This document shows positions 19,699 to 38,959 of a stretch of 64,000 nucleotides of DNA, in pieces. The stretch comes from Prostheceraeus crozeri (taxonomy: Eukaryota > Platyhelminthes > Polycladida > Euryleptidae). Within the stretch, counting starts at the first letter, position 1. The number at the start of each line of letters is the position of its first letter. The DNA lies in the NCBI GenBank assembly GCA_907163375.1, contig CAJQUW010005348.1, positions 186,001 to 250,000 on the forward strand, read 5' to 3'. The notes under the pieces are model-generated. The model did no database searches, was not told the DNA's origin, and saw only the letters and a program-made list of their open reading frames with translations. Position numbers and translations under genes: made by a program.

Positions 19699-19704
19699 AC
19701 TGTT
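19699..19704 (+). repeat. Left 6-bp target-site duplication of the Polinton
   Basis: actgtt immediately precedes the left TIR and is repeated exactly at 42913-42918 after the right TIR. Six-base duplications are characteristic of Polinton/Maverick integration. Confidence 0.9.
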
Positions 19705-20255
19705 AGTAGTAAGTAAAACTCCACTTCTGGACCGCGCAAGATGGCCGCCGTCGCTGACGTCCCCCCCCCTCTGGAACGGCAGAGTGTCGTGGTCGGCCGC
19801 CGTGGTGCTTTGAGTCTGACGACCCCCCCCCTCTGGAACGACAGAGTGTCGTGGTGTGCCGGCCAAGTGCGTCCGCCAGGTTCGCTGACGTCGTCCCCCC
19901 CTCTGGTCGACCGTCGTATAGCGCGCGGTGATGTGGTGTCGAGGTTGGCGTGGTGTGCCGGCCAGGTTGGGAGAGTGGACTGTCGTAGCTCACCTGAAAA
20001 AATCCTAAGTGTCAGAGTGGCTTTGTATGGGTAAAATTTTGAAAATTTTCCAAAGTGTGGAATTTCGACCTGGGACCTTCACCAAAACATTTTTCATCAA
20101 ATTTCACGGACCTCCCCCCCCTCGGGAGAGCTCGCTTCGATCTTGGCTTCTAGTGGACGGATTTTGTCGTGCAATAGCTCGTTTGAAAGCTAAGAGTGAG
20201 ACAAATTCACTGAAAGAAACGGCTTGTTCATATCTGTCTTCGTTTAGATGTGAGA
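19705..20255 (+). repeat. Left terminal inverted repeat of the Polinton
   Basis: The outer ~280 bases are CpG-rich and hold several C7-C9 tracts within imperfect ~60-bp subrepeats (…ccctctggaac-g-cagagtgtcgtgg…). The inner part, from 19990, is AT-richer and matches the reverse complement of the right end, including ctgaaaaaatcctaagtgtc and the segment around 20155-20255. The left side has one copy of the unit that forms a tandem array on the right. ORFs drawn across this region are spurious. Confidence 0.88.
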
Positions 20256-20386
20256 CGCCATTTAAGATTTTGGGAGATTGACGAAAAACGACAGAGTTAG
20301 AATTTCCCAAGAAACAGCTCCAGCGGGCGAATGAAGGCTCGGATTGGTAAACGGAGGCCAGATTTGGAATCAGCTTGATGTTATTG

Positions 20387-20434
20387 TCCAATGAGGATCA
20401 TCATCCAATGAGAATCAAGCATTTCTATATAAAT
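20387..20434 (+). promoter_or_regulatory. CCAAT-CCAAT-TATA promoter of the first Polinton gene
   Basis: Two ccaatga boxes (20388 and 20405) are followed by tatataaata at 20425-20434. The start codon is about 105 bases downstream of the TATA box, with a ct-rich leader (ctctctctctct near 20502-20513). The polymerase gene has the same order of elements. Confidence 0.7.
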
Positions 20435-20539
20435 AGCGAGCCTTCCACAGTGAGAATCATTCCATCGTTGAATCGCACGAGTGACGGACGCACATTTTCT
20501 CTCTCTCTCTCTAGTTCCCTATTCTATTATCCAACTAAA

Positions 20540-21314
20540 ATGGTAAGTCGCTACTTTCCTCCCTCTCCTCCCTTGAACGTAAACTTAATACAATCTTTTT
20601 CATTTTCAGGCATCTACTCCATCTGCTGCACTAGTAGGACAAAATGGCGGTCAAACGTTACAAGGTTCGCTACGATCAGATCATCTACAACTGAGGCCAG
20701 TTGAAGAAACAACCAAGGTACATAATCCTACACCGCTACAGCGTAAATTTAAACAAGTCTTGCGTTATGACGATCATGGCGTAGTACTCCAAACGGGAAT
20801 GCTCCCTTCCACGGATGTCAAGATAATGCACAATCAGTATGGGGACTACATACTGATCCCCGTGAGTCCGTACATTCGCCACCAACTTGATATTATTGAG
20901 GAGTACGTGACATTAAATATGGACATTCCTACTCCTCTTGCTCAATAGTGGAAGGCGAGGGATGACAAGGATACTCCCTATAGAAAGATTTGGGATGGTA
21001 ATCAAATTTGCCTACCGGTATCACATTGGTGCACTTACTATAAGAAGAAGGGAGATCATTCAACACCCATCACATGCGACGAGCTCGGAGAAGGTACTTG
21101 GGATATCCTTTTCAAAGTGAATGGGCTATATTATGGTTGGCATAAGGATAATAAAATAGCCTCTCTCTCCATGCATATGGAATCCATCCTATATATTCCA
21201 AAACCACCCAACGTGGACGACATAATTGATCAAATCCTTAACAGCAGTGGTACGAAGCGCAAGTCGGAGAAGAATGCTGCATCAAAACGCAAATCAAAGA
21301 AGGAGAATTACTAG
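20540..21314 (+). pseudogene. Spliced Polinton protein of unknown function, interrupted by TAG
   Basis: The first exon is only the start codon (20540-20542), followed by a 67-nt intron (gtaagt at 20543, ttttcag ending at 20609). The second exon begins gcatct and encodes ASTPSAALVGQNGG. The frame reaches TAG at 20946-20948 (context caa-tag-tgg) after 113 residues. The same frame then stays open to 21312-21314, giving about 235 codons in all. The downstream part looks like real coding sequence, with many aromatic residues (for example GTWDILFKVNGLYYGWHKD) and a Lys/Arg-rich, nuclear-signal-like tail. The TAG is therefore a nonsense mutation, a read-through site or a sequence error. I do not recognise the family. 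Its position first in the rightward block, under a strong TATA promoter, fits an early gene, which is inference. Confidence 0.65.
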
Positions 21315-21348
21315 TCCTTTCCTAACTCTACCCTATGACAATTCGCTT

Positions 21349-21474
21349 ATGTGCTTTGAGTGTCGTAGACGTGGTCTTATTAGATACATTTTACTTCTTC
21401 GTTGCCATCATATCATTTGTGTATTTTGTCGTGAAAAGCATCGATGTAATTCTTCATTTTGTAATATGTTATAG
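21349..21474 (+). CDS. Small RING-like zinc-binding protein
   Basis: This 41-residue frame is almost entirely a metal-binding pattern: C2-x2-C5, then C19-x-H21, C24-x2-C27, C33 and C38. The order C-x2-C, C-x-H-x2-C-x2-C, C-C is that of a RING finger, with slightly odd spacing in the last pair. Start at the ATG at 21349; an in-frame upstream extension exists but overlaps the previous gene. RING domains commonly act in ubiquitin transfer; a specific role here is not shown. It may be a fragment of a larger gene, because a second RING-like protein lies at 22.6-22.9 kb. Confidence 0.45.
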   Translation: MCFECRRRGLIRYILLLRCHHIICVFCREKHRCNSSFCNML

Positions 21475-21526
21475 AACGTTTCCTTAGATGTGTAAATTTC
21501 CGTTTTAGGCTTCTATCATCATTTTT

Positions 21527-22057
21527 ATGGATTGTGAGGGTGAACCTGTACAGGAGCTCAGTGCTATTGCTATGAACAATTGGACATATCAGATTGTCAG
21601 TGTCTATCATCAACATGCCAACTGCAATCCCAATGTTGATCAATGGGCGAGAAAACACATTCATGGACTTAATCTGAAATATTTGCAAGACTATGGCTTT
21701 TCTTGTGAAAGTGCTCTTCTTATTGACTTTAAACGATGGTTAGCTGCTTTCAATGTTATACGCATCTTTTGTAATAATCCTGGTAAGGAGAGGAAAGTAT
21801 TTCTCAATCTAATCATTGATGATATTTTGCTCCCACCTTGGGATAGTAGAGTGAATCAACATTATCATGAAGTCACGAAACGTTTTAAGGATTTGTCTGT
21901 TCCTATTTTGTCTGTTCGTTGTAGTAGCTACGTTCATAACCAATGCTTCTTTCCTCCTTACCTCAGCACTGCCAAAGTCCTGTATGGTTATCATTGCTCG
22001 CTGTATGATAGTTACCAGCTGTATCTATTTTATCTCTTTCAAACCATTGATTTATAA
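21527..22057 (+). CDS. DEDDh-type exonuclease-like protein
   Basis: 176 aa. The N-terminus carries D-x-E (MDCEGEP). In-frame codons back to 21509 encode a hydrophobic strand (ASIIIF) just before it, as expected for exonuclease motif I. Later come a conserved-looking KHIHGLNLKYLQDYGF segment and, near the C-terminus, HCSLYDSYQLYLFYL, which resembles motif III of DEDDh nucleases (H-x4-D). A middle acidic residue could be among IIDD. The upstream ttttag at 21508 is a possible splice acceptor followed by gcttct (Ala-Ser), recalling the first exon design of two other genes in this element, but no good donor is visible. Fold and activity are inferred from motifs only. Confidence 0.45.
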   Translation: MDCEGEPVQELSAIAMNNWTYQIVSVYHQHANCNPNVDQWARKHIHGLNLKYLQDYGFSCESALLIDFKRWLAAFNVIRIFCNNPGKERKVFLNLIIDDILLPPWDSRVNQHYHEVTKRFKDLSVPILSVRCSSYVHNQCFFPPYLSTAKVLYGYHCSLYDSYQLYLFYLFQTIDL

Positions 22058-22144
22058 TGCATGCTTGTTACTATTATTCAATAAATGTTACTATGAGAAG
22101 AGTTGTTGATTTCATGCAATGGATGGGTTAGATAAAGGGCGATC

Positions 22145-22555
22145 ATGTCTTTCTCAAACGACTGCGGAACATTACATTTTCATAGGCAAAGTTTAAAAGG
22201 AGCTGTTCAAGATTATGTGATAAATTTTCATAAAGATGAGACCGACATCGAAGCAGTGGTCGATGATGCTAGCACTCTATTTCTAGAGTTAATGAATACA
22301 TTCTCTGATAGCATTGTCATGGCGCGATTAGTTGTGAAAATTAAGTTTAGTCATTTTGGAAAGGAAGAGGTGGAAAGTCGCTCTTTCCATTTTGCTTCTT
22401 ATTCAATGGAAGTGGTAGATCACCCCGAAGAATTTTTTAAAAGACATATGATAAAAATTGCTGAACGTCTTACTGCATTTAACCATCATGGTAGCAGTCT
22501 AGTGATTGAAGCGATTTCAGATATTCACATTCAACTTTCCATAAAGAAAAATTGA
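22145..22555 (+). CDS. Free-standing relative of the polymerase B N-terminal domain
   Basis: 136 aa, no enzyme motif. Its layout follows the N-terminal region of this element's own DNA polymerase (about 35.64-35.99 kb, minus strand). Both have a DY start, a hydrophobic strand (RLVVKIKFSHF versus ALIYLKLKYIKI), a central V-[DN]-x-x-E segment, a helix ending in a Phe-Asn motif (AERLTAFNHHGSSLVIEAI versus NVDKFNQRESALIFDGV) and a closing strand (IHIQLSI versus IFKISL). I infer a duplicated or split-off domain that may bind DNA or a replication partner. The gene ends two bases before the next ATG (tgaaaatg). Confidence 0.5.
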   Translation: MSFSNDCGTLHFHRQSLKGAVQDYVINFHKDETDIEAVVDDASTLFLELMNTFSDSIVMARLVVKIKFSHFGKEEVESRSFHFASYSMEVVDHPEEFFKRHMIKIAERLTAFNHHGSSLVIEAISDIHIQLSIKKN

Positions 22556-22557
22556 AA

Positions 22558-22881
22558 ATGCAGTGGTACTTGATTGTAGCACAACTGGTTTTCGAGCTAT
22601 GTCTGCTCACTCTCGAAGTATGTTCCTTCTGTACATGCGTCTATTATTTAGAAAAGGCTAGCAAATTCATATCTTCAAAAAGACTTGCTATAGACATCAG
22701 TAACGGTGAAACTATGTGTTGTGATGTATGTAAGCGAATGGATTGAAATGATAAGCGCATCTTCAAGAGATGTAAGCACGCTTTTTGTCAACGCTGTTTC
22801 ATACGTAATTGCATTCAACTTTGCAAATGTAACCACTGTGATATTGCTCATTTCGAGTGTCACTTATGTCGCAATAGTTAG
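22558..22881 (+). pseudogene. Membrane-anchored RING-like protein interrupted by TGA
   Basis: The N-terminus is a hydrophobic segment suited to a membrane anchor or signal (WYLIVAQLVFELCLLTLEV). A Cys-rich domain follows: MCCDVCKRMD, then in-frame TGA at 22744-22746, then in the same frame RCKHAFCQRCFIRNC and CKCNHCDIAHFECHLCR to TAG at 22879-22881. Together the two parts make a RING pattern (C-x2-C, C-x-H-x2-C-x2-C, later C-x2-C pairs). The stop splits the domain between its first and second metal pairs, so the copy is broken or needs read-through. Start chosen at ATG 22558, two bases after the preceding stop. A ubiquitin-ligase role is inferred from the family only. Confidence 0.5.
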
Positions 22882-22932
22882 TACCTATGCAAATGTGGTA
22901 AAGATAGGTTTTAGCAAAGACTAACACGGAAA

Positions 22933-23283
22933 ATGGCGAAACGTAAAAGTCAAAAGTCTTCAAAGTTTTCTTCAGCCATTCAAGCTCTCCGACGAATGAA
23001 AGCAAATCAGCGATACAATGCTATACGACATGCCAACGATAAATCCATTTGTGAAATTATTTCTCATGTCAGAAAGTTGAGGACGAAGAAATTAGCGCCA
23101 AAACAACGAAAGTTACTTAAGCGATATGCCACAAAATTGCGTTTCATCTCCAATCCTAAAGTCACCCTTCAAAGAAAGAGGAAAACTCTAACACAAAAGG
23201 GCGGTTTCCTTTCAGCAGTACTTCCAATGATAGCTCCTGCCGTGGGCAACCTATTGGGTAATATCTTTGGCTCTAAGCGTTAA
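22933..23283 (+). CDS. Small basic protein with hydrophobic C-terminus (virion core type)
   Basis: 116 aa. The first ~85 residues are strongly basic (Lys/Arg-rich, helical: KLAPKQRKLLKRYATKLRF). The last ~28 form a Gly-rich hydrophobic stretch beginning QKGGFLSAVLPMIAPAV. A KGG before a hydrophobic helix resembles the maturation-type sites and membrane-active helices of small adenovirus core proteins (pX/pVI). It sits just upstream of the packaging ATPase. Role in the particle or DNA condensation is inference. Confidence 0.5.
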   Translation: MAKRKSQKSSKFSSAIQALRRMKANQRYNAIRHANDKSICEIISHVRKLRTKKLAPKQRKLLKRYATKLRFISNPKVTLQRKRKTLTQKGGFLSAVLPMIAPAVGNLLGNIFGSKR

Positions 23284-23314
23284 TTATGCAAATGTTGAGT
23301 CTCAAAGTAATAAA

Positions 23315-23932
23315 ATGGATTTCAGACTTCAATGTGATAAAGTTCTGACTGTATCAGGTCCATCTCATGCAGGTAAAACTGTTTTCACGCTGAATTTATT
23401 GGATAAAAGAAGAGAGTTGTTTAAGGAACCTATCAATCGAGTGATTTGGTGTTATGGTATTTATCAACCGTCGTTGTTTCAGGAATTGCAAAGTCGCAAC
23501 TTTATTCGACATGAAGGAATTATTGCAGTGGATAAACTTCAGTCTAATGATGTTGTTGTATTGGATGATTTATTAAAAGAAAGTAAGAATTCAAAAGATG
23601 TTACAGATATGTTCACTCGCGCAGCACATCATAAAAGGTGTTTTATCATCTATATTACACAAAATTTATTTCCTGATGGAAAAGAAGCTCGTACACGAAA
23701 CCTGAATACACACTATTATGCTATTTTCAAGAATCCGCGAGATAAAAGTCAATTTGAAATTTTAGCGCGACAAGTTGCACCCAGAGGATCAAAAGCCTTA
23801 ATTGAAATTTTTCAAGCAGCTACTGAAAAACCATACGGTTACTTATTCATTGACTTTACGCAAGAGTGTCCGGAAGAATTTAGATTTCGAAGTGATATTT
23901 TGAAAACTCCCATGATTATCTACAAACTATGA
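23315..23932 (+). CDS. FtsK/HerA-type genome-packaging ATPase
   Basis: 205 aa from ATG 23315. Walker A is GPSHAGKT at residues 15-22 and Walker B is VVVLDD at 80-85. A later ITQN segment fits the sensor glutamine of A32-like packaging ATPases. The small size is normal for Polinton packaging ATPases. An upstream open extension to 23267 has no ATG and overlaps the preceding gene, so I rejected it. The stop overlaps the next start as ATGA (23929-23932). It would drive DNA into capsids. Confidence 0.85.
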   Translation: MDFRLQCDKVLTVSGPSHAGKTVFTLNLLDKRRELFKEPINRVIWCYGIYQPSLFQELQSRNFIRHEGIIAVDKLQSNDVVVLDDLLKESKNSKDVTDMFTRAAHHKRCFIIYITQNLFPDGKEARTRNLNTHYYAIFKNPRDKSQFEILARQVAPRGSKALIEIFQAATEKPYGYLFIDFTQECPEEFRFRSDILKTPMIIYKL

Positions 23933-24621
23933 GTTCTTATTCTCGCATGATTGTTATTCCTCAGGATGAATATGTACAATTGACTGCCATGCAGCAAGTA
24001 AAGGAACCTCTTGCAAATCAAATGTATAGGAAAGAAATAGATTATCAGCAAAATGTTCACATCAAAGATCCACATCGTGCTGTATTATTACAATCGGAAA
24101 CTGTTGAGCAATTGAAAAACTTGAAGAATAAGATGCGTGACTCTGTATCGACTGCTACACCTTTAGCATCTCGCGCACATGCCATATCTCTTTTCAACAG
24201 TATTGAACCCCATCTCAATGTAAATGATAGAGGAGAAATCATTACAGATGAAAATAAAGTGATTGATGCTTCACGTTATGAAGACTTGATTCAGTATGCG
24301 ACACGAAGAAAGCGCCGTCAGGGCTATGTTCCACCTGGTTGGTCATACTTTCTTAAACTATTGAAAAAGCATAATGTACCAAAATTTGCTTTGAATAATG
24401 AGACATTGAAAGAACTTGATTCAACAGTGGCTACTGCTCCAATGCTTCAGACGATGAAAATGCCAACAAATTGGTTTAAGACGTCACCTGCTACATCCCC
24501 TCCCACACTCACTAAGCAAACAAGAGGAAGAACTCGACGTAGATCTACATCACCACTAAAACTAGTAAAAGGAAAACGTAAAACAGCTCCTCCCAGGAAA
24601 TACATGTTCTCAGACTATTAA
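23929..24621 (+). CDS. Conserved-type Polinton protein of unknown function
   Basis: 230 aa. The N-terminus is RMIVIPQDEYVQL, a form I associate with a recurrent Polinton protein next to the ATPase and integrase. The centre is helical and charged. A KRRQGYVPPGWSYFLKLL segment follows, then a Ser/Thr/Pro/Arg-rich tail ending in KRKTAPPRKYMFSDY. No catalytic motif is visible. The basic tail suggests nucleic-acid or nuclear association. The start overlaps the ATPase stop by ATGA, and the stop is one base before the next ATG (taatatg), so it is probably translated from a shared transcript. Confidence 0.6.
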   Translation: MSSYSRMIVIPQDEYVQLTAMQQVKEPLANQMYRKEIDYQQNVHIKDPHRAVLLQSETVEQLKNLKNKMRDSVSTATPLASRAHAISLFNSIEPHLNVNDRGEIITDENKVIDASRYEDLIQYATRRKRRQGYVPPGWSYFLKLLKKHNVPKFALNNETLKELDSTVATAPMLQTMKMPTNWFKTSPATSPPTLTKQTRGRTRRRSTSPLKLVKGKRKTAPPRKYMFSDY

Positions 24622-24622
24622 T

Positions 24623-24820
24623 ATGAAGCAGATATGTTGCTTGCCATGTAATGAGCCGCCAGAGGTGAATGTCGTTGTCACTTGCACTTGCTGCGCCAGC
24701 TCTCACAATGAAACCCCTAAGCAATGTGAACACGATCGCAAAACCGCTAAAGCTAAATGCTGCAGTTGTTGTAAATGCAGAAAGGCAAGAAAACAAAAAG
24801 ATGAGAAGGAGAAAAAATAG
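24623..24820 (+). CDS. Small cysteine-rich protein
   Basis: 65 aa with clustered cysteines: ICCLPC, TCTCC, QCEH and KCCSCCKC, then a Lys-rich tail. The CC-x-C and C-x-CC spacing could bind metal clusters (metallothionein-like) or structural zinc. It lies between the preceding gene (one base gap) and the integrase, whose ATG is 20 bases before this stop. I do not recognise a family. The tight fit and composition argue for a real gene rather than a shadow. Confidence 0.45.
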   Translation: MKQICCLPCNEPPEVNVVVTCTCCASSHNETPKQCEHDRKTAKAKCCSCCKCRKARKQKDEKEKK

Positions 24821-25889
24821 TCAGTCGTCATCGACTGAACGTTTGAAGTCAATCTATTATGATGTAAAGCATCCGGCAGGATTTGCATCTATCAAGAAAT
24901 TATCAAAAGCGAGTGGTCTTCCACAATCACAAGTGAAACGATGGTTAAAGGGTCAGGATACCTATACACTCCACAAACAAGCGAAGAAGAAGTACCGCAC
25001 CCGCCATTATATTGTTCATGACATCGATGAACAGTGGCAAGCAGATTTGTGTGATGTTGCCTCCATTTCAAAACATAACTCGGGCAATAATTTTATTTTA
25101 ACCGTCATTGATATTTTCTCGCGTTATGCGTGGGCTCAACCTTTAAAAACTAAAGAAGGGAAAGGAGTAGCAAAAGCATTCCAAACAATTTTTCGAGAAG
25201 GTCGCATTCCAAAAAGAATTCAGAGTGATCAAGGAAAAGAGTTTGAAAATCAGCATGTGAGAAGATTATTTGAGAGGCATGACATTGAGTTGTTTAGTGT
25301 AAAGAGTACTTATAAAGCTGCATTCGTTGAACGTTTTAATCGCACATTAAAAAATCGCTTGTGGCGACATTTTACTGCGAACTTGACACAAAATTGGACA
25401 AAGGTTCTACAAGATACACTCCATGCCTACAATCACTCTATCCATCGTTCTATTGGACTCAGACCAGTAGATGTAAATGCTGACAATGTAGATAAAGTGC
25501 GCGAATCATTCCAACGTAAACGCACTCATGTGAAAAGTGATGTGAAAATTGGTGATAAAGTTCGTATCTCAAAAGTGAAGAGTGTTTTTGCTGAAGGGTA
25601 CATTCCCAATTGGACAGAGGAGGTATTTACAGTATCAAGGATTAATCAAAAAGACTCTCCGACCACCTACAAGTTGAAAGATTACGATAATGAAGAAATT
25701 GAGGGTAGCTTTTACCGCGATGAGATTGAGGTAGTCACTGAAAGTGAAACATATTTGGTAGAGAAAATCATTCGATGTAAAAAACGACAAGGTGAAGAAT
25801 GGTGTCTTGTTAAATGGACTGGTTATCCTTCAAGTATGAACTCTTGGATGCGTCGTGCCGACATCTTTCATCTAAGTGATCGACAGTGA
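24801..25889 (+). CDS. Retrovirus-type integrase with C-terminal chromodomain
   Basis: 362 aa from ATG 24801; the longer open frame from 24669 starts inside the Cys-rich gene and adds unconserved sequence. A helix-turn-helix-like N-terminus (IKKLSKASGLPQSQVKRWLKG) precedes the rve core. Catalytic acidic residues are D82 (WQADL), D143 (QSDQGKEF) and E177 (VERFNRTLK), 33 residues apart by my count, typical of Polinton integrases. An SH3-like segment (VKIGDKVRISK) follows. A chromodomain ends the protein (YLVEKIIRCKK…WCLVKWTGYPSSMNSW). It would cut and join element ends with a 6-bp stagger; the chromodomain may direct insertion to marked chromatin. The frame is intact. Confidence 0.93.
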   Translation: MRRRKNSQSSSTERLKSIYYDVKHPAGFASIKKLSKASGLPQSQVKRWLKGQDTYTLHKQAKKKYRTRHYIVHDIDEQWQADLCDVASISKHNSGNNFILTVIDIFSRYAWAQPLKTKEGKGVAKAFQTIFREGRIPKRIQSDQGKEFENQHVRRLFERHDIELFSVKSTYKAAFVERFNRTLKNRLWRHFTANLTQNWTKVLQDTLHAYNHSIHRSIGLRPVDVNADNVDKVRESFQRKRTHVKSDVKIGDKVRISKVKSVFAEGYIPNWTEEVFTVSRINQKDSPTTYKLKDYDNEEIEGSFYRDEIEVVTESETYLVEKIIRCKKRQGEEWCLVKWTGYPSSMNSWMRRADIFHLSDRQ

Positions 25890-25930
25890 TTCATGCAAAG
25901 TTGTAACTAACAATGTTTAGGGTTTGAGCT

Positions 25931-26386
25931 ATGAATCCAACTGCCTCATTTTATTCACGACCCTCCTATGTAAGTGGTGGAGGACAAATTTACATCGGCG
26001 CTCGCCGCCAACGTGGAGGTAGCATACTTGGTGCACTGAAATCTGTTGTAGCACCTCTCATATCCAATGTCGGTAGATCTTTAAAACGAAATGTTTTAAG
26101 TAATGCCGTTGGCTTTGCTGGTGATGTTGCTAGTGATCTTTCCAGAGGTAGAAGTTTTAAGAGCAGTTTGTTGAATCGTGGGAAGGAACGCGGTTTAAAA
26201 ACATTGAAGCAGACCTTTGCTGGTGTTACTCAAGGAAAGAAATCACCTAAACGAATGAGAAAAGGAAGGAGGAAACATCGCGGAGCTGGTAAGGTGCGAT
26301 CTTCAGTCAAAAGGCATTCACGCAAACGTCGCAGAGGCTCTAATCATTCATCAGGCGCTAAACGACGACGCTGCCATAACTTCTAA
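25931..26386 (+). CDS. pVI/pX-like basic virion protein
   Basis: 151 aa. The N-terminus has GGGQIYIGARRQRGG followed by an amphipathic helix (ILGALKSVVAPLISNVGRSL), then a second helix region, and the last ~50 residues are almost entirely Lys/Arg/Ser. Membrane-active helices plus a basic tail, immediately upstream of the capsid and protease genes, match adenovirus pVI/pX in content and order. The stop overlaps the capsid ATG (taatg at 26384-26388). Maturation cleavage near the Gly-Gly sites is plausible but unproved. Confidence 0.6.
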   Translation: MNPTASFYSRPSYVSGGGQIYIGARRQRGGSILGALKSVVAPLISNVGRSLKRNVLSNAVGFAGDVASDLSRGRSFKSSLLNRGKERGLKTLKQTFAGVTQGKKSPKRMRKGRRKHRGAGKVRSSVKRHSRKRRRGSNHSSGAKRRRCHNF

Positions 26387-27666
26387 TGATGGAGTATAAA
26401 ACTTCCGGTTTTTGTTTGTTTGATCAACAAGCCATACAGACAGATATTCTTAGTTCAAGTATTGTAGATTATCATCCTCGAACAGCTGAGAATGCTGGCC
26501 CCATTGAATTTGTTATTCCTGGTGGTAGTGATGACTACATAGATTTGAGTTATGCGATGGTTGATTTGAGGTTTAGAATTCAGCAAGCAGATGGAACTGC
26601 TATTGACGATACACATAAAGTTGGACTGAACAATTTACCATTGACTACATTACTTCGTGATGTTTCTCTAACGATTGGAGAGCAGCAGGTGGAAGGGGGT
26701 CAAAGCGATTATCCCTATAAATCATATTTCAATCATGTATCACAGTTTCATCCAGCAGCACAAAAAAGTCATATGGAAGCCATGGGATGGTACAGAGATG
26801 AAGCAGGAAAATTTGATGTTGAAACAAACAGTGGCTTTGTAAAGCGATCTGCTATGAATAAAGATAGTAGAGTATGTCAGCTATATGGTCCGCTGAATTT
26901 AGACTTCTTTAGACAGTCAAAGTTTTTACTCTGTAATACCAGCATGCGACTCAAGCTGACATTGAATAAGCCTGAATTTGCGCTGAATGCATTTGCTAAA
27001 GTTGACAATTTTAGAATTCATGTGGAAGATATTGCACTTTACATTCGTCGAGTAGTACCGAATCCAAGTGTCATTAGAGGACATGCTGAAGGTCTTAACC
27101 GCCAAAATGCCATTTACCCCGTTCAGCATACAAAGCTTCTCACCTTTACAATTCCTAAAGATCAAAAGAGTTTCATGAAAGATGGCCTCTTTCCATCGGA
27201 AGCACCGAAGCTCCTCATGGTGGCAATGGTTGAAAATGATGCATTTAATGGTAATATAAAGAAGAATCCTTTCAATTTTAAACACAATCAGTTAAGTGAA
27301 ATTGCTTTACGTGTAAATGGTGTGAGTCATCCTGGTCCACCCTACAAACCAGATTTTGCTGCGGATCAATTTATGCGCAGTTATGTTGATTTTATGGATG
27401 TCTTTGGCTTTTACAATACGGATGACACCAACGGACTCACTATGAAAGAGTTTAAGAGTGGATATACTATTTATGCATTTGATTTGACTGCTGACAGCGA
27501 TATTAGTGCCCCCTATCGTCAAGCGAACGTGCCTCATAATATTCGTTTGGATTTGACGTTCAAAAGAACACTACCTGAGACGATCAATGTATTAATTTAT
27601 GCAGTCTTCGATTCAAATATTGAAATTACAAAGTATCGTGACGTGATTCTTCAGTATAATCGTTAA
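26386..27666 (+). CDS. Major capsid protein candidate (F54H12.2-like family)
   Basis: 426 aa, intact. Features shared with the widespread F54H12.2-like proteins of invertebrate Polintons are PIEFVIPGG-DDYIDL near the N-terminus, the central PYKSYF, VENDAFNG-x4-NPFNFKH, and the C-terminal YTIYAFDLT and LPETINVLIYA segments. Predominantly beta-type alternation suits a double jelly-roll. Its place between the pVI-like gene and the protease matches adenovirus hexon. Two ATGs lie at the start (26386 and 26389); the first overlaps the previous stop. The capsid role rests on family recall and position, with no structure seen. Confidence 0.75.
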   Translation: MMEYKTSGFCLFDQQAIQTDILSSSIVDYHPRTAENAGPIEFVIPGGSDDYIDLSYAMVDLRFRIQQADGTAIDDTHKVGLNNLPLTTLLRDVSLTIGEQQVEGGQSDYPYKSYFNHVSQFHPAAQKSHMEAMGWYRDEAGKFDVETNSGFVKRSAMNKDSRVCQLYGPLNLDFFRQSKFLLCNTSMRLKLTLNKPEFALNAFAKVDNFRIHVEDIALYIRRVVPNPSVIRGHAEGLNRQNAIYPVQHTKLLTFTIPKDQKSFMKDGLFPSEAPKLLMVAMVENDAFNGNIKKNPFNFKHNQLSEIALRVNGVSHPGPPYKPDFAADQFMRSYVDFMDVFGFYNTDDTNGLTMKEFKSGYTIYAFDLTADSDISAPYRQANVPHNIRLDLTFKRTLPETINVLIYAVFDSNIEITKYRDVILQYNR

Positions 27667-28127
27667 TGAGTTGGTTTACTGCTGACGATAATAAGACTAA
27701 AGTGCAGCGTAATGCAGACGAAGCGACGTTGAAAGCTTTCGATAATGTCTATTCACTCGATACCTTACCACCTGCAGTAAATCACTATCCCATCTTTATT
27801 GTGCTAAACACTCATTCGCAGAATTTAGGCGGTGAGCATTGGAAAGCGATCTTTATTGGAGAAGACCGACGTGGTGAACTATTTGACTCTCTTGCTCAAC
27901 CTCCAAATATACCAACACAGCAGTGGTTGAGAAAACATACGCGTCAATATCAGCGAAATGAACGCATACTACAACATCCACTTTCATCAACGTGTGGCGC
28001 TTTTGTACTGTACTTGATCTTAAAACGTTTACATGTATCTCGATTTGTATCTGTTATTCAAAACTTTTCATGTAATCCATCCTCTAATGAAAAAATGATT
28101 TGTAAGTTCTATCATGATTTGAAATAA
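27666..28127 (+). CDS. Adenain-like maturation cysteine protease
   Basis: 153 aa. Catalytic order matches adenovirus protease: H58 (GGEHWKA), acidic residue at E71/D74 (GELFDS), Q103 (ILQHP) and C110 (STCGAFVLY). Length is slightly below adenain (about 200 aa). The start overlaps the capsid stop by one base (taatg). It would cleave particle proteins during maturation. The frame is intact. It converges with the TBP-like gene, whose stop is only 27 bases away. Confidence 0.88.
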   Translation: MSWFTADDNKTKVQRNADEATLKAFDNVYSLDTLPPAVNHYPIFIVLNTHSQNLGGEHWKAIFIGEDRRGELFDSLAQPPNIPTQQWLRKHTRQYQRNERILQHPLSSTCGAFVLYLILKRLHVSRFVSVIQNFSCNPSSNEKMICKFYHDLK

Positions 28128-28170
28128 AAACATCATATTGTAAAAATTGTTTTTTATTTTACAATCCGCT
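28124..28170. terminator. Shared convergent polyadenylation region
   Basis: On the + strand aataaa lies at the end of the protease frame (28123-28130 region), and on the minus strand aataaa-type sequence (tgtaaaataaaaaac) follows the TBP-like stop. Both transcripts appear to end within about 50 bases. Confidence 0.45.
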
Positions 28171-28699
28171 GGGTACGTACATACTCGATGAGATAGTCTA
28201 GGATCACATTTGTTTGTACATGAGATTTTAGTCCAGTAATGATCACTTTACTATTATGAAAGATTGCCACATGCACAGGTAACCAACAACTAATGAGAGC
28301 TGCAGGAAAAAGTTCGGGTTCATAACACAAATTGTAACTGCTGGTACGAATCTTCAAAAATGATACACTTTCACTCAATTGAGTAGAGATCACCATATTG
28401 TCCACAGTCAGATTCGACATCACACACCTCTCCCTCTTCCATATCCGACGTAGTAGTCTTTGTAGCTCTAAGCGCATTGACTGCGCCGATGAATGAGAAA
28501 GGGCGCCGAGAATCTGTACAGTCCCATTTGGGAAGAGTTGAAGATTCCGTGAATTGTTCATCTTCACCACTAACATTTGAGGTCGGCCCGGGTAATACTT
28601 GCTGTTTGGAAGGTGTTGGTGTAATGTTGTGAGATCGATTTTGGTGTAGAGTCTGAAGCGACGGAGAATGTTGACGATGGTGTAGCGATGGCGCTTCAT
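28154..28699 (-). CDS. TATA-binding-protein-like transcription factor
   Basis: 181 aa, about the length of the TBP core, with two repeats. Repeat 1 (about 6-88) has YTIVNIL, KIDLTTL, NSKYYPGR and LQLFPNGTVQILGALS, matching TBP NIV, LDL, N-EYNPKR and LIF-SGK-TGAKS positions. Repeat 2 (about 92-175) has YEPELFPAALI at 126-136 and VAIFHNSKVIITGLKS at 144-159, very close to TBP YEPELFPGLIY and LIF-SGKVV-TGAK. Three of the four DNA-kinking phenylalanines appear kept (F56, F131, F147); the fourth, in repeat 1, is replaced near P40. Start chosen at ATG 28699, where TBP similarity begins; the frame is open further upstream but overlaps the PC4-like gene without similarity. The gene would bind TATA-type promoters, several of which occur in the element. 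Intact frame. Confidence 0.8.
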   Translation of the reverse strand: MKRHRYTIVNILRRFRLYTKIDLTTLHQHLPNSKYYPGRPQMLVVKMNNSRNLQLFPNGTVQILGALSHSSAQSMRLELQRLLRRIWKRERCVMSNLTVDNMVISTQLSESVSFLKIRTSSYNLCYEPELFPAALISCWLPVHVAIFHNSKVIITGLKSHVQTNVILDYLIEYVRTQRIVK

Positions 28700-29021
28700 G
28701 ATGAAAGAATGAGTAAATTGAGCGATGTACCTTCCTTTTATACTTCTTCCAACTACCTTGATGAAATGTAAAGTTAGTATGAAGTTGGGAATGATAGAGT
28801 TGAATTCGCCGATTGTTGACGCGCAGCCAGATGCGATTTCCAATACGTGAATGTCTTTTCATATAGAAGTATTTCAAATCCTTCATGATATGATGTAGAG
28901 ATTGAAAATGACGATAAGATAAAGCAAACTCTCTTCTCACATTTCCAGTTGAATCTTTGAAATAGACGTTTCGATCATGATCCGTTTCAATACGTTGTAG
29001 GGAATCTAATTTCCAACTCAT
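28371..29021 (-). CDS. PC4-like paralogue B with a long tail overlapping the TBP-like gene
   Basis: 216 aa. Residues 1-~108 align along their whole length with the neighbouring gene at 29044-29400: W-LDSLQ-I start, GNV-FK-S, LS/LT-R-F-L-IM-DL-YF, a beta segment ending in I-L-HS, then W-KYKR-VHRSI. The first half (strand - GNV strand - LT-x-x-x-F-L helix) resembles the PC4/p15 ssDNA-binding coactivator, where G-KV…RKGISL…QW-L follow in the same order. Similarity to the paralogue stops at about nt 28697, exactly where the TBP-like ATG lies. The remaining ~108 residues are Ser/Thr/Pro-rich and read another frame of the TBP-like gene, so the tail may be overprinted or accidental. Confidence 0.5.
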   Translation of the reverse strand: MSWKLDSLQRIETDHDRNVYFKDSTGNVRREFALSYRHFQSLHHIMKDLKYFYMKRHSRIGNRIWLRVNNRRIQLYHSQLHTNFTFHQGSWKKYKRKVHRSIYSFFHHEAPSLHHRQHSPSLQTLHQNRSHNITPTPSKQQVLPGPTSNVSGEDEQFTESSTLPKWDCTDSRRPFSFIGAVNALRATKTTTSDMEEGEVCDVESDCGQYGDLYSIE

Positions 29022-29043
29022 GGTGCGTGGTAGTCATGTCTGA

Positions 29044-29400
29044 TTAAGATTTGCATAGTAGGGCGATGAACTCACGACGAATAAATGTCATGATGGAGCG
29101 ATGTATGTATCTTCTATACTTCTCCCAATTGTATTTGCGAAATGAGAAACAGTTTGCGGAATGAGAATGGCAGATTTGAATTTCATTGTTGCAACGTTGA
29201 AGCCAAACTTGATCACCCAAGGAGATGAATCTTAATGTTTCAAAATATTCCAAATCCCTCATGATATCATTGAGGTTGACAAATTGTCGCCATGTTAATG
29301 TAATACCTCTTGATGAATGATCATGAGAATTTTTGAAATGTACGTTTCCATTACGATCAACTCTGATACATTGTAGAGAGTCCAAAATCCAAGTCTTCAT
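29044..29400 (-). CDS. PC4-like paralogue A
   Basis: 118 aa from ATG 29400 (the open frame reaches 29412 but has no ATG there). Begins MKTWILDSLQCIRVDRNGNVHF, then RGITLTWRQFVNLNDIMRDL, which parallels the PC4 core K-GISL-x-x-QW-x-L-x-x-I-D. The second half (ISLGDQVWL…NWEKYRRYIHRSI) is shared with paralogue B but not with classical PC4. Start codons of this gene and the rightward gene at 29436 are only 35 bases apart, so promoters must lie in coding sequence or be shared. The PC4 link is my inference from motif order; a novel small fold is the alternative. Confidence 0.5.
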   Translation of the reverse strand: MKTWILDSLQCIRVDRNGNVHFKNSHDHSSRGITLTWRQFVNLNDIMRDLEYFETLRFISLGDQVWLQRCNNEIQICHSHSANCFSFRKYNWEKYRRYIHRSIMTFIRREFIALLCKS

Positions 29401-29435
29401 GATGTTATGCAAAGCCGCAGATCAGCAATATAAAA

Positions 29436-30832
29436 ATGTCGTTTTATCATATTTTGCTTAGCAATGCGGCTACAAAGAGATTTGCTAGTAATCGAGCCGC
29501 ACTCTTTTCTACTCCCATTGATCATACACAACAGCTAAATGGAAATTGGGAAGTGGGCGTCACTCAACTTGTTTATAGCAACTGTGTCTATACTTTTGAT
29601 CATGAGGTGATGACTATTAATATGAGACGCACAGCTGCTTACCAATGTGAAAAGGGCTGCCGAGTATACATTCCACAGTGGCCAAAGAAAGATCTCTTAT
29701 CATGTAAAAAGTTTATATATGATTTCTTGAATAAAGCGTGTAAACATATTGTCCAATTTACTCCGCACAATGATGATCATAATTATGTACATCATGTAGT
29801 TGAGAAAGATTGGATTGTTGGTTTAAGTCCAAGTTTAAGAAATGATTTAGGTTACCTCGCTAGCGCCTTAACAAGCTATGATAATTTTAACGTTAATTAC
29901 CACATAAGTGGTCATAAACAGTTAATATATCGAGAGGAAGCTTATTATGTAGATCTTATTCCAAGAAATGAGAAGACGTTGGTGAAGAAGATTGTGATTA
30001 AGCCAAGAAAGACAAACATGACTCCTGAAACATTATTGAAGAAATTTAATCATCTCCTTCGAGTTGATGGTAACAAGTGGCAACATTGACTTATATCAAA
30101 TCATCTAATCATATTGCAATAAATAAATTAAATGATGATGATCCAGTATTAATTTGTTCAAAAGATTTTCATCAGTTCTTACGACATCGTTCTGCAGCTG
30201 TTCATGGAAAATCTGATATGCAACATTTACCATGTGAAAGGCCAAATCAATTTGATACAGAATGGACCGTATCTTTATACAGAAAGTGTGTAGAGCCTTT
30301 AGGTGGTATCTTACATGAAACAAGAGTGTTGATGCCTCGCATTATTACTTCGGTTAAATTGGTTGTAGATTATTTAAATGAAGTGATTAATGAGCAACAT
30401 ATTTCATTTTCTGAAAAAGAAGGTATTTTGTCTCTCACTATAAGTGGAAAAGGCATTGAACTAATTATGGATAAAACTCTAATGGACATTTTGGGTTTTG
30501 ATCAAAATATCTTTAAAAGTGGTACTGTAACCAAAGCTAGTGCAGACATGTCGCTATCGCGTCGTATTAACTATTTTCAGATATATTCCAATATTGGTGA
30601 AGATGTACGTGTGGGAGATGTTGAAGCTCCATTGCTAGCAATGATACCATACCAGCCAAAAAGCTGCAGTATTTTATCTGAGCATACTTTCAAGAAAGTG
30701 CATTATACAAAGCTGAAATCAAACTACATCCCACAAATTGATATTGCCATTTATGACGATGCTGGTGCGTTGATTCCTTTTCATAAAGATGCTGTGACAA
30801 GTATCACACTCCATTTCCGAATGAAGAGTTAA
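29436..30832 (+). pseudogene. Virion-type Polinton protein A, frameshifted
   Basis: The first part (29436-30089, 217 aa) starts MSFYHILLSNAATKRFASN and carries the LNGNWEVGVTQLVY motif, a hallmark of a large family in invertebrate Polintons. The second part (from about 30077) continues in another frame with no ATG at its start, through LMDILGFD and GDVEAPLLAMIPYQ, and ends DIAIYDDAGALIPF…LHFRMKS, the usual C-terminus of that family. The break lies at about 30071-30088. The family sits with capsid genes and may be structural, but its role is not established. The end overlaps the next start (taatg). Paralogous to the gene that follows. Confidence 0.6.
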
Positions 30833-32393
30833 TGCAAAAGTATGCTAATATATTTTCCAATGTGAATAATATGGAAAGTGAAAATAAGGACTCGTTTCTA
30901 ATCTACTTGCCCAGTAATGCTTCTATGAATAAATTTCCCAAAAATAAACCATCAGACTATCGAGTAGAATTAAATCGTCCGCTACATTTAGAAGGTGAAT
31001 GGGAGGTTGGCGTTTCTAGTATTTGCTATGATAGCAATATTCAGAATGCGAATGATTTGGAAGAAATGATATTGACTCCTCGCACCCATGATGGAATAAC
31101 GATGAATAATGCATTCCAGTTCCCATACAATTTAACATCAGATGGAAAGTGGAACTATGAATGGATTCAGATAAAATCAGATTCTTATGAACCATTTGGG
31201 AATGATAAAAAATTATTAAGGCATTCAATAGTGGTAATACTTCCATCATGAAGAATAAAAATCAGAGAGCTTATGAGTTTACTATCTGTCATTGGAGTGG
31301 GAGACAGTTCCTTCGCTTTCATTCTTTTACTAAAGGTCTTACACTAAGGTTGGATAATGAATTCTATCCACATCTTGGTTTTGGTCATGGACTACATCTA
31401 ACGTCAATTGCTACTGCAAATGTTAAAAAAGTTTATTCAAATCGAATCAACAAATTTCATTATAGATTTAAAATATTTGATGAAGATGTTGTAGAATGCG
31501 AAGAACGCATCATTTTGAAAAAGCGTGGTGTTCAACCTTTATCACTTATTGAGTTAGTAAAACGATGGGATGAGACTGTGGGTAAGAAGTATGGAGAGAA
31601 AATTATGGCGGACAAAAATAAGTTGGTCATTCAGAAATATAATGAGAAACTTACAGTTTATTTCTCTCCAACCTTGCGCCATTTTGTAAGACATTATACA
31701 CCTATTATTGGAAGCGGTGTGGTGTATGCTTCTCATGAATATCACACTAAAGCTGATTCAGTTAATGATGAATGGTGGGTGGACATCTATGGTGATCGCA
31801 TCAAGAAAATTTACCAGTCTTATGAAGAATCTAAAGTTGCTATCAATATAATGCCGCGTCTATATCATACAGTTGAAAGCTTCATTCATGTAGTAAATCC
31901 TTATATACAACAGAAGTTGAAGCATGTGATGAAAAGTAAATATGATGTAAAGACGCACCACATTTCGTTTTCAATTGAAAATCAACGCGTTTTTCTGAAA
32001 CTGGGCGATGACATTCAATGTCAATTGAGTAAAAATTTGAAAAAACTCTTTGGCTTTTCAATGCTACAAACTGTGTTTACTGCTGCGCATACGATCGGTA
32101 TAGAAACACCAATGACACTTGATAAACATGAACAGCACCTTTACATTCAAAATGATTTGATTCTACCTATTTCTGTTGGTGAGAAAAAAGAATACATTTT
32201 ACGCGATTTCATTCATGATAAAGACGCTTCATATGGAATAGTCGAGAAGATGTTTGAATCTATTTTCTATCATCCCGTCGTCAAACAAACTATACCCTCT
32301 ATTGCTATCAAAATTACCAATGGTTTACAAGAGTGCATCCATGTGAAAGATACTAAATCCCTCGTAACTTTAGTGTTTCGGAAAACAAAGTGA
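30832..32393 (+). pseudogene. Virion-type Polinton protein B, frameshifted
   Basis: The N-terminal part (30832-31251) has FLIYLPSNASMNKFPKNKPS and LEGEWEVGVSSICYD, the same motif as protein A. The C-terminal part continues in another frame from upstream of 31248 to 32393 (FGFSMLQTVF, then a final IAIKITNGLQ…VTLVFRKTK). The frames change at an A6 run near 31208-31213, so a one-base indel is likely. A start at the ATG of MESENKD (30871) is possible instead of 30832. Tandem duplication of A and B is clear from the order of motifs. aataaa follows the stop at about 32416. Confidence 0.6.
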
Positions 32394-32572
32394 AGTCATT
32401 GTGATATATTTATTGAAATAAAAATATGTATATGAAAAAGTCTTTTCACAGATATAGGGGGAATGAGCTGACTGTAGGCATATATTCACAAGGAAGAAAC
32501 GATCTCATGCGATACATAAAACAACCATGTATATCTACAAAAAGCAACATCAAAATACTGAGTTAAAGTTGA

Positions 32573-35500
32573 TTATGTCAATACATCTCCTGAATGTGGT
32601 AGCGTGAGTTTTATTCTTTTGGGTGGAGGTATGTTTGTGTCAGGATGTCCATGTGGAAGAGATGTGTTATGTCCTATCCAACACCTCTTATCTTCCCATG
32701 CTGAAAGTGCTCGTTTCTTGAACGTGTACGTTTTCACAGTATGAACTTGAGATTTTAAGATTGTCATATTGACAAACGTTATAGTTTTATTTTTATAGGC
32801 CTTCTTATAGGACCGATGTTTCATTTTATGAACAATGGATTTTGATATACCTTTAGCACGCTTAATACTATCTGCACATTCTTTTAATTTCATGGAATAC
32901 ATTTTAGGACGGAGGAGAATCATTTCATCTGTTTCCTTTCCTGCTGTTTCATCCTTAAAACAACCAAGTTTGGCTTTATTCTGTATGGAATAGAGTGGAT
33001 GAGTGGGATTGTAGTTAGATGTGTCGAAATATTTTTCTAATGACTTGCCTACTTCATTAAAATTTAAATCTTTTTGAGTGGTAATTCCTAAAAAGAAACT
33101 ATCTGTATCACCACCCAGCAAGCGAACCTCTTTTACGAGAGGGCATGGTTTTAATATTTTGTAGAAGAGTTGATACATTTCAAGCTTAGAATAATCTAAA
33201 ACGGCTTGCCCAATATAGATGGGTTTGCACAACTCAACTTCTGATTTTATCATTTTAACACCTACAAGATCCTCATCGATGATGTCTCTATCAATGAAAA
33301 GAGGTGATGAGGTCAATTTGTGATATTTTTGTTCATCAACGACTAGTTTGTAGTTCATACGTTTTCTAACATCCTCCATGGTCTTTCCGAAAAGACTGTT
33401 ATTCTTATATTTATAAAAATCCTTTTCAAAATTATTTTGGGCGAGTGCACGTTTTTGACTGTTACTATCTATGTAGGGTTTGAAGAAGGCTTTCTGTCTA
33501 AATTTGATAATGCGGTGAACTGACTTTAGAAGCATGCCCATTTCTAAATAGAATTTTAATATGCAGAAGTGTACGAGATAATTTTTCTTATCATATTGGG
33601 TGAGTAAAATTTTGCGGCATGGTTTGTACCTTGGCTGTCCACACTCTGTTAAGTTATTATGAAATTGTGACATGAATGGTGAAAACATATCTTCAGTCAC
33701 TTCACCAGATTCAGGTGCGAGTGGGAAATCAGCAGTTTTATTTTTAATGCTATTTGGATAAATCAAATCCACTTCAAAATAATATCCCCAATCACCTTCA
33801 TCTGGAATCTTCAGTATGTTTGAAGGGTTGGAGTAATACTCAAGCTCATCTTGATTTAACCAACTAAACTCGGAATGAGGTAGTGGTTTAGACAGTGAAC
33901 TACCATATAAATTATTGTGGTCATAGTACTTTAGGTGGATATGATCATCACCTACTGTTTCAGATTTTATATGATGTTTATTTACAAATGTGAGACCACC
34001 GCGTATTCCGCGCTCAAAAATTTATACATCTCCGGGTCTTGTAAGAGATGAATGGTCTCACCAGTCATTTTAAAGGCTGATTTAAAGGACATGGCTGGTA
34101 GACTGACAAAGTGGACAGGATCTAATTTGTCTTCTTCTAATGCCACTCGTCGAAATTCCTGAAAGACATCAGCCAGCAAAATGACATCTAATTCTAAGTA
34201 AGCGATCATACAATCGCCAAACGTTTTACAATCAAATTTTAACCATGCCTCTTGAGCATGTTCATAGTCCTCTACTGGACAATCTTCACCCGTCAAATCG
34301 TTTTGGAATTTGTCAATGGAAGGAAGGGTTGTTTCATTTAGTTTAGACATTGAGCTAAAATACGCATAGGGAAAGACTCCTTTGCGAGTGATCATGTCAT
34401 CCGTTAAGTTTGGATAGTGTTTCTTCAAAGTTTGACTATGGGGAAGAAACTTGAGATTTCGAACGAGAGAAGCTAGTGACGCTGACATGAATTGAAATGA
34501 ATCTAAAAATTTTATTTCGAAGAAGACTGTCTTATTTTCTTTAGTTTTATCTACTGGTACTTTTGCTGTCATTGCCATGAATTTTTCTCTCGTTTGCGCT
34601 ATAACATTGAACTGCCACGATTTCATCTGGCTCAACCCTCCTTTTATGAGCATATGACTGTCATAGCCCTTAAAGTTATGAAAAATGACGGGTAGTACAC
34701 GACGTCTCAACATAAGTGAAAAGTTACATTTGGAGCAGAGTGCGTTTCTAAATTTACCAGTGATGTGATCATGATCACGCAAATTTCTGTTTGTCTTCAT
34801 CTGACATATGTAGTGACTTACGCTGCAATTGTGAATCATATGATTGTTGAAATTTAGCAGCTTTATCGAGAAATTCTAGAAATTTTGAAATACAATCTTC
34901 ACCTTGCCAAGTATGCATTTTGTTTTGTCTATTCCTAAAGTGGTCATGCCATACTTCATAGCAGGATATGACTGCTGGTTTGTGGATGATATCATCAATG
35001 TAGCTTTCTATGTCTGCGTAAATGATACGCAGGGGACTTAATTCGTCACCATTATCCCTATGTGAAAATATTTTATCTTTGGGCATGCGTTCCATTTGTA
35101 ATTTACCTCGCTTGCACCATTCATAGTGAGTTTCAAATTTATCTTTACTCCAAAAGGAGCGGATGCAGCGGTCGCATACAAAATGTTCACCTCTTTTAGA
35201 GTGCTCCAAGTGAGTGTACAAGCGAGAGGTTTTTAGAAAACCACAGTAGTGCCATTCCTCGCTATCATCTTGTTTTACTAATAAGAGGTTGACTACACGT
35301 TCATAACAAGTTGAACGTGAATTATAGCGGGCACCCTTCAACCCCTTCTCCCACATGTGAACGACAATTTTAATCTTATTATGTTTTTCGAACGTTTCTA
35401 CATCTTTGATTTTCATGTTGTCACTATCACAACCTTCAAAGTCTAGTTCATCCTCCCACTGTCTATAGCTATAGGTATGATTTCGATTCGCGTTGATATC

Positions 35501-36484
35501 ATTATAGTGAAGGATGGATAGGACTGCATATTTGAAACACTGTGATTTACAATCGACATTGATGACAGCTTTCTTATTATACAACGTTTTTGGTAGTTTA
35601 AATGTGCCTCGAGCTGCATGACTTTCTAATAGTGAAATTTTGAATATGGCTGAGTCCACACCATCAAAAATGAGAGCGCTCTCGCGTTGATTGAATTTAT
35701 CTACATTTGATTTTAAACATTGAATGTGAAAATTTAGCCAAGACTCGCAGTTTACAACTTCAGTTGCGGAAGAGGAAGGAACATGAAACTGTATTCTCTC
35801 CGTCACTTGACCCGTTTGAAAATCTATCTTAATATATTTTAGTTTGAGGTAGATGAGCGCCTTCATTCTAAAATTGTCTAAATTGTTGAAGAGCGCTTCG
35901 ATAATGTTAGAATTTTGAAGGAGCCACTCAGGAAAATCTACTATTTGAGTATTGGACTCCATGCAGTAGTCGCGTACTAAATTATTGTGTGAAACATTAA
36001 TGAGGGAGATGGTAGAGGTACCGTTGGTGTAGTGATCATTTGCATGCGTGTGTTGAAGTCTGTGCGAAGATCGCTGAAAGTGACTATCAAAAGAAAGAGG
36101 GCACAAATCGCAAGGAAAGGAGATGTCATCGTCAGAATCAACTTTACCTCCGGAGATTGACGCCGCTTTGCGTTGACACACACGTTGTCTGATGTGTCGA
36201 AGGAGACTGTGCTTCCTTGTAAACATATGTCCGCAGTCGGCACATTCCCACTCGTTGCCTTGTCGCGAGAGTCCTGAGCTGGAACTCACATCACCTGAAA
36301 GAGAAATCATTCTATCATCTCTGTTCAAGTCTCAGTGTATTGTTACAACCTACTTTGACTCAACAACTCTAAACTTTCCTCGAGAAGGGAGGGCGTTGGT
36401 GATGAAGTTGATGCCTGAAATTGAGGAAGATGCTATTAGCCACACGTTTGAGGGAGATGAGTGAAGAAATTTTCAACTTACCAT
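32573..36484 (-). pseudogene. polB: Protein-primed family B DNA polymerase, three exons, two frameshifts
   Basis: Exon 1 is just the ATG (36484-36482), then a 67-nt intron (36481-36415), exon 2 (36414-36354, starting MASTSS with exon 1), a 59-nt intron (36353-36295) and a long exon from 36294, all phases consistent. The N-terminus has two C2H2/C2HC-type fingers (CADCGHMF, CDLCPLSF) and a third one further on (CDRCIRSF). Exonuclease motifs: YADIES near 35.01 kb, FHNFKGYD near 34.66 kb and the LELD-x5-D region near 34.19 kb. Polymerase motif A (DHNNLYG) lies near 33.91 kb, B (NNSLFGKT) near 33.39 kb and C (GGDTDSFF) near 33.10 kb; the end carries the family's DKR-W…GHPDT segment. Frames change between about 34840 and 34800 and at a T5 run near 34017. 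All motifs are present, but this copy would not make a full enzyme as written. It replicates element DNA from a terminal protein primer. Confidence 0.9.
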
Positions 36485-36621
36485 TTCAACGAAATCGAGT
36501 TTAAGGTTGATACTTCAACAAGATAGAGACTTCACGAGAAAGAGCAGTTCACTTGTACGCCAGAGAACACTTCACTCATATGTCACAAAGACAGAGTGAA
36601 ATGACACGAATGTCACTTTAC

Positions 36622-36668
36622 ATATATACTTTCGTATTCATCATTCATTGGCTGTTCATTCTGATTGG
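36622..36668 (-). promoter_or_regulatory. CCAAT-CCAAT-TATA promoter of the polymerase gene
   Basis: Reading leftward: ccaatc (about 36663-36668), ccaatg (36646-36651), then tatatat (36622-36628), about 140 bases before the polymerase ATG. The order and spacing copy the promoter at 20387-20434. The CCAAT pair may also serve the rightward gene at 36726. Confidence 0.65.
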
Positions 36669-36725
36669 TTGCTTGTTGATACTTAAGAATTAGAAAACAT
36701 TTCAAAGTTATTATTCACAGTCAAC

Positions 36726-37172: not shown

Positions 37173-37225
37173 TAAATTTTTATTTCGTATTATCTTTGCT
37201 TTCATACTGACTTACTTGAACGGGG

Positions 37226-37633: not shown

Positions 37634-37969
37634 GAGAGAAGTGTGTTATGTTGCGTGTGGCGCGTGAGTGTCCTCCCATTTCATTCCATTCATCAATTCG
37701 TCTCATTGATAGAGACAGGTAGAACTCATGGTTCTCATAACGTATGCAATGGAAAGTTTTAGGCAACCTTCGACAGTTGGCTAAATGTCGCCCTGGCGCG
37801 AATGCATACTACGTTGACACAGAGGCAATCACTTGCAAACATGACGCAGAGAGGTTAAACAAGATTGACCATTGCCGAATATCCCTTGCGGTATACATAG
37901 CTACGGGCTTCACCGCCGCCCTTTACAGGAACGCCCGTCGAAAGGAAGTATTACACCGAACTTCATTTG

Positions 37970-38118: not shown

Positions 38119-38124
38119 AGTTGA

Positions 38125-38640: not shown

Positions 38641-38645
38641 TCATC

Positions 38646-38912: not shown

Positions 38913-38959
38913 GATTGAAATGAAATGAAATGAGAGGCAGTGGTTTATATACCCCTCTA

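Follow-up and report, generated by a model that had tools for sequence, protein, structure and literature searches.

Why would a Polinton carry a gene for a TATA-binding protein (TBP)? Polintons have been put forward as the ancestors of many DNA viruses of eukaryotes, and the literature that we searched gives no description of how their genes are transcribed. The window analysed here, a stretch of 64,000 nucleotides from the polyclad flatworm Prostheceraeus crozeri, contains one such element, and a leftward frame within it had been taken, from the letters alone, for a TBP-like factor with the two-repeat layout of TBP.

The element and its TBP gene

The assignment to a Polinton made in that sequence-only reading holds (Table 1): AG-initial terminal inverted repeats, with AGTAGTAAG at both ends, and a 6-bp target-site duplication enclose the gene together with a retroviral-type integrase and a DNA polymerase B (PolB). 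The family DNA_pol_B_2, which we take to be the protein-primed type of polymerase, matches the middle PolB frame (E 1.3e-8, 34.6 bits against a cut-off of 25.8). In this region a C2H2 finger falls just under its Pfam cut-off, the adenovirus-PX-like gene also scores under its cut-off, and the presumed capsid protein has no sequence match in Pfam or PDB.

Table 1. Features of the Polinton and of its TBP region, in window coordinates
Feature	Position	Strand	Remarks
Target-site duplicate ACTGTT, left	19699..19704	.	
Polinton element	19705..42912	.	23.2 kb; bounded by inverted repeats beginning AGTAGTAAG
ATGCAATG before ORF136	22114..22121	+	
ATGCAAA before PX-like gene	22887..22893	+	
Packaging-ATPase-like gene	23267..23932	+	weak Pox_A32 match, 14.9 bits against cut-off 22.8
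ATGCAAA before ATPase-like gene	23286..23292	+	start taken at ATG 23315
Integrase (rve) with chromodomain	24669..25889	+	Pfam rve, E 5.3e-11
ATGCAAA before core-like gene	25893..25899	+	
Presumed major capsid protein (MCP), 426 aa	26386..27666	+	named after the usual Polinton gene layout
Protease-like gene (PRO)	27666..28127	+	Peptidase_C48 16.7 bits, under cut-off 20.7
TBP-like gene, 181 aa	28154..28699	-	two repeats, frame open; Pfam, AlphaFold and PDB matches
PURa, 216 aa	28371..29021	-	predicted PUR/Whirly/PC4-like domain, aa 1-110
TATAAAAGG box before TBP	28734..28742	-	43 nt before TBP ATG, inside PURa frame
PURb, 118 aa	29044..29400	-	paralogue of PURa domain, without overlapping tail
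ATGCAAA before PURa	29050..29056	-	
ATGCAAA before ORF217	29407..29413	+	
ATGCAAA before ORF139	30832..30838	+	if start is ATG 30871
DNA polymerase B region	32573..36328	-	DNA_pol_B_2; three frames in window copy (interrupted)
Target-site duplicate ACTGTT, right	42913..42918	.	

The 181-amino-acid frame is a TATA-binding protein. The profile and structure checks proposed with the sequence-only reading came out in its favour: the frame matches PF00352 in two stretches (E 1.7e-20, 73.1 bits against a cut-off of 22.9), and its AlphaFold model (pLDDT 95) has the saddle fold. All 44 PDB matches at E <= 0.001 come from TBP entries, and NCBIfam models of archaeal TBP reach E values down to 3.6e-19, with scores below the models' own cut-offs. 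A further 61 relatives are present in the protein database, with identities of up to 81%, and PF00352 matches each of the 62 aligned sequences (E <= 0.001); the host's own TBP is 26.5% identical. IMG/VR yielded no relatives, whether the query was the TBP or its alignment, the capsid candidate or a two-row capsid alignment.

We scored residues over the 62 aligned sequences, with positions set against host TBP; the positions that touch DNA and TFIIB are those usual for TBP, in agreement with PMC12529657. Three of the four DNA-kinking phenylalanines are kept, as had been noticed from the letters, and they are nearly invariant (F56 62/62, F131 61/62, F147 62/62). At the first kinking position the host reads KRF and the element GRP, with proline (P40) in 58 of 59 ungapped rows, which sets the protein apart from eukaryotic and archaeal TBPs (PF00352) as a diverged member. 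It differs from them further in being encoded by a mobile element and, in the window copy, in having no long N-terminal extension. Both asparagines (N10 in 50/50 ungapped rows, N101 62/62), the proline after phenylalanine (P132, 62/62) and the glutamate pair of the YExE motif, the putative TFIIB contact (E127 61/62, E129 62/62), are retained. Since three phenylalanines, two asparagines and P132 persist at DNA-face positions, the element TBP probably still binds DNA.

Next to the gene, and overlapping it by 305-338 nt, lies PURa, whose tail is modelled with low confidence and whose last 326 nt share the window's TBP gene in another frame. The model of PURa shows tandem four-strand-plus-helix repeats, and on this footing it is predicted to work like the PUR/Whirly/PC4 single-strand binders; unlike known members of that fold (Pur-alpha, Whirly, MRP, PC4) it has an overlapping tail and no sequence match to them. 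Eight members were scanned against Pfam, and neither PUR nor PC4 came up even at an E limit of 10; PDB gave no PUR, PC4 or Whirly sequence match, and Foldseek nothing at E <= 0.001 for the structure. Alternative-frame similarity between families A and B (defined below) was not above the null (191/1000), and in family D the long overlapping PUR frame was not seen. A protein from a JGI record (P0067) covers the whole PURa query (100%) with an identity that rounds to 100%, one residue differing in the alignment; its source is probably the host or a near relative.

Four families in one genome

A PF00352 search of the 2.05-Gb host assembly gave at least 150 matches, the window's own copy not being among the matches listed. 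Two rows are exons of the host's own TBP gene (C9306) and two belong to a TRF2-like gene (C3829). TRF2 is not known outside animals, and the two genes together point to an animal host. That leaves at least 146 further TBP-like matches. Twenty stretches were hand-picked from the matches listed: three are host genes, and in the other 17 (L012-L028) Polinton genes stand beside TBP without exception. Twenty more (L029-L048), picked as likely copies of the window's family, all match its TBP-PUR-ORF217 region at 93.6-98.7% (L045 only in part).

The copies fall into four families: A, the window-like copies, whose TBP proteins are 96-98% alike; B (L012, L013, L015); C (L014, L016, L023, L024, L026, L027); and D (L017). 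TBP identity is 37.9-54.9% between families and 24.3-27.5% to host TBP. All four carry the phenylalanine-to-proline change at the first kinking position and keep the other three phenylalanines, the two asparagines and the glutamate pair. As to the same gene at the same place in other Polintons, TBP is present in all four families, and the order protease-TBP-PURa-ORF217 is common to A and B; in D TBP also adjoins the protease, but the next block is inverted.

One copy of family C (G000 C6670, L049 7854 to L050 5674) is about 16.3 kb long. Its inverted repeats measure 968 nt and are 96.6% alike, its termini are AGTAGTAA as in family A, and ATCATA stands on both flanks as a 6-bp duplication. It holds PolB, TBP, a PUR frame, relatives of ORF176 and ORF136 and unassigned frames; the integrase, capsid, protease and ATPase proteins of the window had no match in it at E <= 0.01. 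Full elements may mobilise family C as a satellite. Because this capsid-less relative keeps TBP, the protein must do more than serve capsid genes; the gene content places TBP in a non-structural core, which makes a role solely for late genes unlikely and weakens the earlier suggestion that the factor perhaps serves late genes. ORF176 itself (21527-22057), which by eye has the look of a DEDDh 3'-5' exonuclease, had no match in the Pfam scan; its family C relatives are about 33-49% identical by piece.

Is the gene maintained by selection? N:S variant counts over 25 family A copies can be set against a neutral expectation of 2.95; L025 and L045 were left out because their matches are interrupted or partial, and L030 because of a 51-nt gap. 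Outside the overlap, private variants in TBP stand at 21:9, near neutral, and shared variants at 5:8; the whole TBP frame gives a modest contrast (53:21 private, 12:11 shared). PURa outside the overlap gives 30:16 private and 3:8 shared, and in PURb the shared variants show no constraint (33:21 private, 15:4 shared). Since high-scoring matches with open frames supplied most of the copies, intact frames prove nothing by themselves; the variant counts, small as they are, give signs of selective constraint on the element TBP. The shared variants with fewer amino-acid changes, small in number, agree with the low identity to host TBP and the presence of four families in bearing out the earlier judgement that this is no recent pseudogene of host TBP. 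We give practically no credence to the reading that a host pseudogene, or an exon captured from the host, sits here without doing anything for the element: divergence, recurrence, a signature kept in 62 sequences and constraint all contradict it, and we found no support for it.

Sequence motifs upstream of element genes

TATA boxes before at least five genes had been offered as evidence that the element directs its own transcription. Of 19 starts, 5 do have a TATA-like string in the preceding 160 nt, a number within chance (401 of 5000 random sets reach it); TBP has one at -43, the left terminal gene at -114 and PolB at -144. At -52..-23, TATA[AT]A precedes 1 of 17 starts, that of TBP alone. 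The TATAAAAGG box before TBP recurs in family B (L013, about -46) and family C (L024); family C copy L023 has TATAAATGG in place of the exact string, and no TATAAAAGG was seen before TBP in family D (L017). The box falls in Tyr-Lys-Arg codons of PURa, a choice with a probability of 4.5% by element codon usage.

A different motif is enriched. ATGCAAA is the most shared 7-mer in the 60 nt upstream of 17 starts, at six genes, a level reached by the best 7-mer in 1 of 2000 random sets drawn from random places and 2 of 2000 from random ATGs; the corresponding counts are 13 and 12 for the window's best 6-mer, and 35 and 16 for its best 8-mer. Six of its eight occurrences in the element, both strands counted, lie in these upstream stretches. 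Each start is a selected ATG, except in ORF251, which has a GTG, and split-start genes (the left gene and PolB) stand outside the 17. For ORF139 we took the ATG at 30871, since the start of the longer frame would coincide with the motif. In the wider form [AT]GCAA, the motif is found at -52..-23 of 7 of the 17 starts (background 6.4%), 28-45 nt before them; the ten starts without it include TBP, ORF176, INT, ORF148 and PURb.

Family B (L013, its TBP row offset by 3 nt) has [AT]GCAA at 6 of 9 starts (background 5.8%), a count that is no independent test, since the pattern was widened after the upstream stretches of this family were known. Free of that choice is its top 6-mer, AAGCAA, whose count was equalled in 0 of 2000 random sets; for 5-mers and 7-mers the test was not significant (157 and 666 of 2000). 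Copies L016, L024 and L027 of family C have AAGCAA before the ORF136 relative adjoining ORF176, and before two other ORF136 relatives (L049, L050) the motif was not seen. Family D has it at 1 of 5 starts, plus one possible ORF139 start, and no k-mer is enriched upstream of the five.

In family A the motif is absent from all five genes whose start touches or overlaps the end of the gene before (ORF230, MCP, PRO, ORF251, ORF381) and present at 7 of the remaining 12 starts (one-sided p ~0.04). A split between first genes and followers fails in family B, however, where MCP and ORF230 start on the upstream gene's end and also carry AAGCAA. The gene starts at 23929, 26386, 27666, 30077 and 31248 coincide with the stop of the preceding gene or lie a little way inside it, an arrangement that suggests coupled translation off shared transcripts. 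In the left terminal gene and PolB (20540 and 36484 on the minus strand), the start codon, judged by eye, seems to be followed directly by GTAAGT and by an intron that ends before GCATC.

We infer that the WGCAA box might be the target of the element TBP. Could a host factor, of the POU octamer or C/EBP-like kind, read the GCAA motif instead, leaving TBP to ordinary or TATA-less element promoters? This is possible, if doubtful: ATGCAAAT equals the octamer site of host POU factors, and the TATA-like strings before TBP, the left terminal gene and PolB would suit it, but the family B motif AAGCAA is no octamer, and its position, roughly 28-45 nt ahead of the ATG, fits a core promoter rather better than an enhancer site.

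Possible roles of an element-encoded TBP

On balance we favour the view that the gene is a long-resident, functional TBP homologue of a (probably animal) Polinton clade, acting as the element's own core-promoter-binding factor. Profile, fold, residues, Polinton context, constraint, the overlapping PUR-like frame and the recurrent GCAA motif were computed here; the promoter steps are conjectural. Self-directed transcription of the element is plausible. Host Pol II would first transcribe the terminal genes and TBP off ordinary TATA boxes; the element TBP would then bind the element's non-TATA promoters, the PUR-like protein perhaps holding melted DNA, and recruit TFIIB and Pol II of the host, which would release element transcription from host TFIID. 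More tentatively, and with rather less confidence than doubt, we suggest that animal Polintons possess a two-protein promoter system, in which a three-phenylalanine TBP has given up the TATA box for a WGCAA box and works with an overlapping PUR-fold partner; the pair would persist in the capsid-less AGTAGTAA relative, maybe mobilised by full elements, and core promoters would be fired without host TFIID, by host TFIIB and Pol II.

TBP and the PUR-like protein might instead form a module for replication or genome maintenance, bending DNA and binding single strands at the terminal repeats together with PolB. We consider this unlikely, even though family C retains, of the window's proteins, just relatives of PolB, TBP, PUR, ORF176 and ORF136, and PUR, Whirly and PC4 folds bind single-stranded nucleic acid. 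The presumed TFIIB-contact glutamates would be superfluous for a pure replication role, and the positional motif upstream of gene starts also speaks against it. A divergent Giardia TBP is reported to prefer single-stranded DNA (PMC12209930), which fits such a module.

Less probable still is a decoy that sequesters host TFIIB or TFIIA, or blocks host TFIID, and so shuts down or rewires host transcription. Retention of the TFIIB face with loss of one kinking phenylalanine in nearly the whole family would be in keeping with a decoy, but the DNA-face residues are kept too, with DNA binding probably retained, and a promoter-like motif precedes several element genes.

An element-borne core-promoter factor would have parallels among DNA viruses. 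Mirusviruses, which are large plankton viruses, are reported to encode TBP in 59% of genomes (PMC10132985). Giant algal viruses and megavirus encode TBP along with TFIIB (PMC11464507, PMC12085832), and their genomes carry further transcription genes, whereas a Pfam scan of 21 element ORFs gave no further general transcription factor. A precedent is KSHV ORF24, described in PMC12529657 as a TBP mimic, a viral TBP fold that reads the non-TATA late motif TATTWAA, with four phenylalanines kept and the TFIIB glutamates absent; the Polinton protein has three phenylalanines and the glutamate pair, a comparison by kind of residue rather than by that paper's numbering.

Our search of the literature for Polinton or Maverick with TBP, TATA or promoter motif turned up, in the portions of text available, no TBP reported in a Polinton; central reviews and the first gene lists of 2006 lay outside it, so a TBP in a Polinton is likely, not proven, to be new to print. 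Their own TBP, in four families in one genome and 61 database relatives, would give Polintons a testable promoter code. It would also offer a natural experiment on how TBP specificity changes, because proline stands in for one kinking phenylalanine in almost all members of the family. Should the motif prove to be the TBP target, virus-specific core promoters under a viral TBP would extend beyond herpesviruses and giant viruses.

Two further observations concern the element at large. ORF217 (29436-30089) and ORF139 (30832-31251) are mutually related by tblastn cross hits and may be duplicated virion or other proteins. The right terminal repeat region (41237-42672) contains several inverted and repeated blocks of 80-190 nt.
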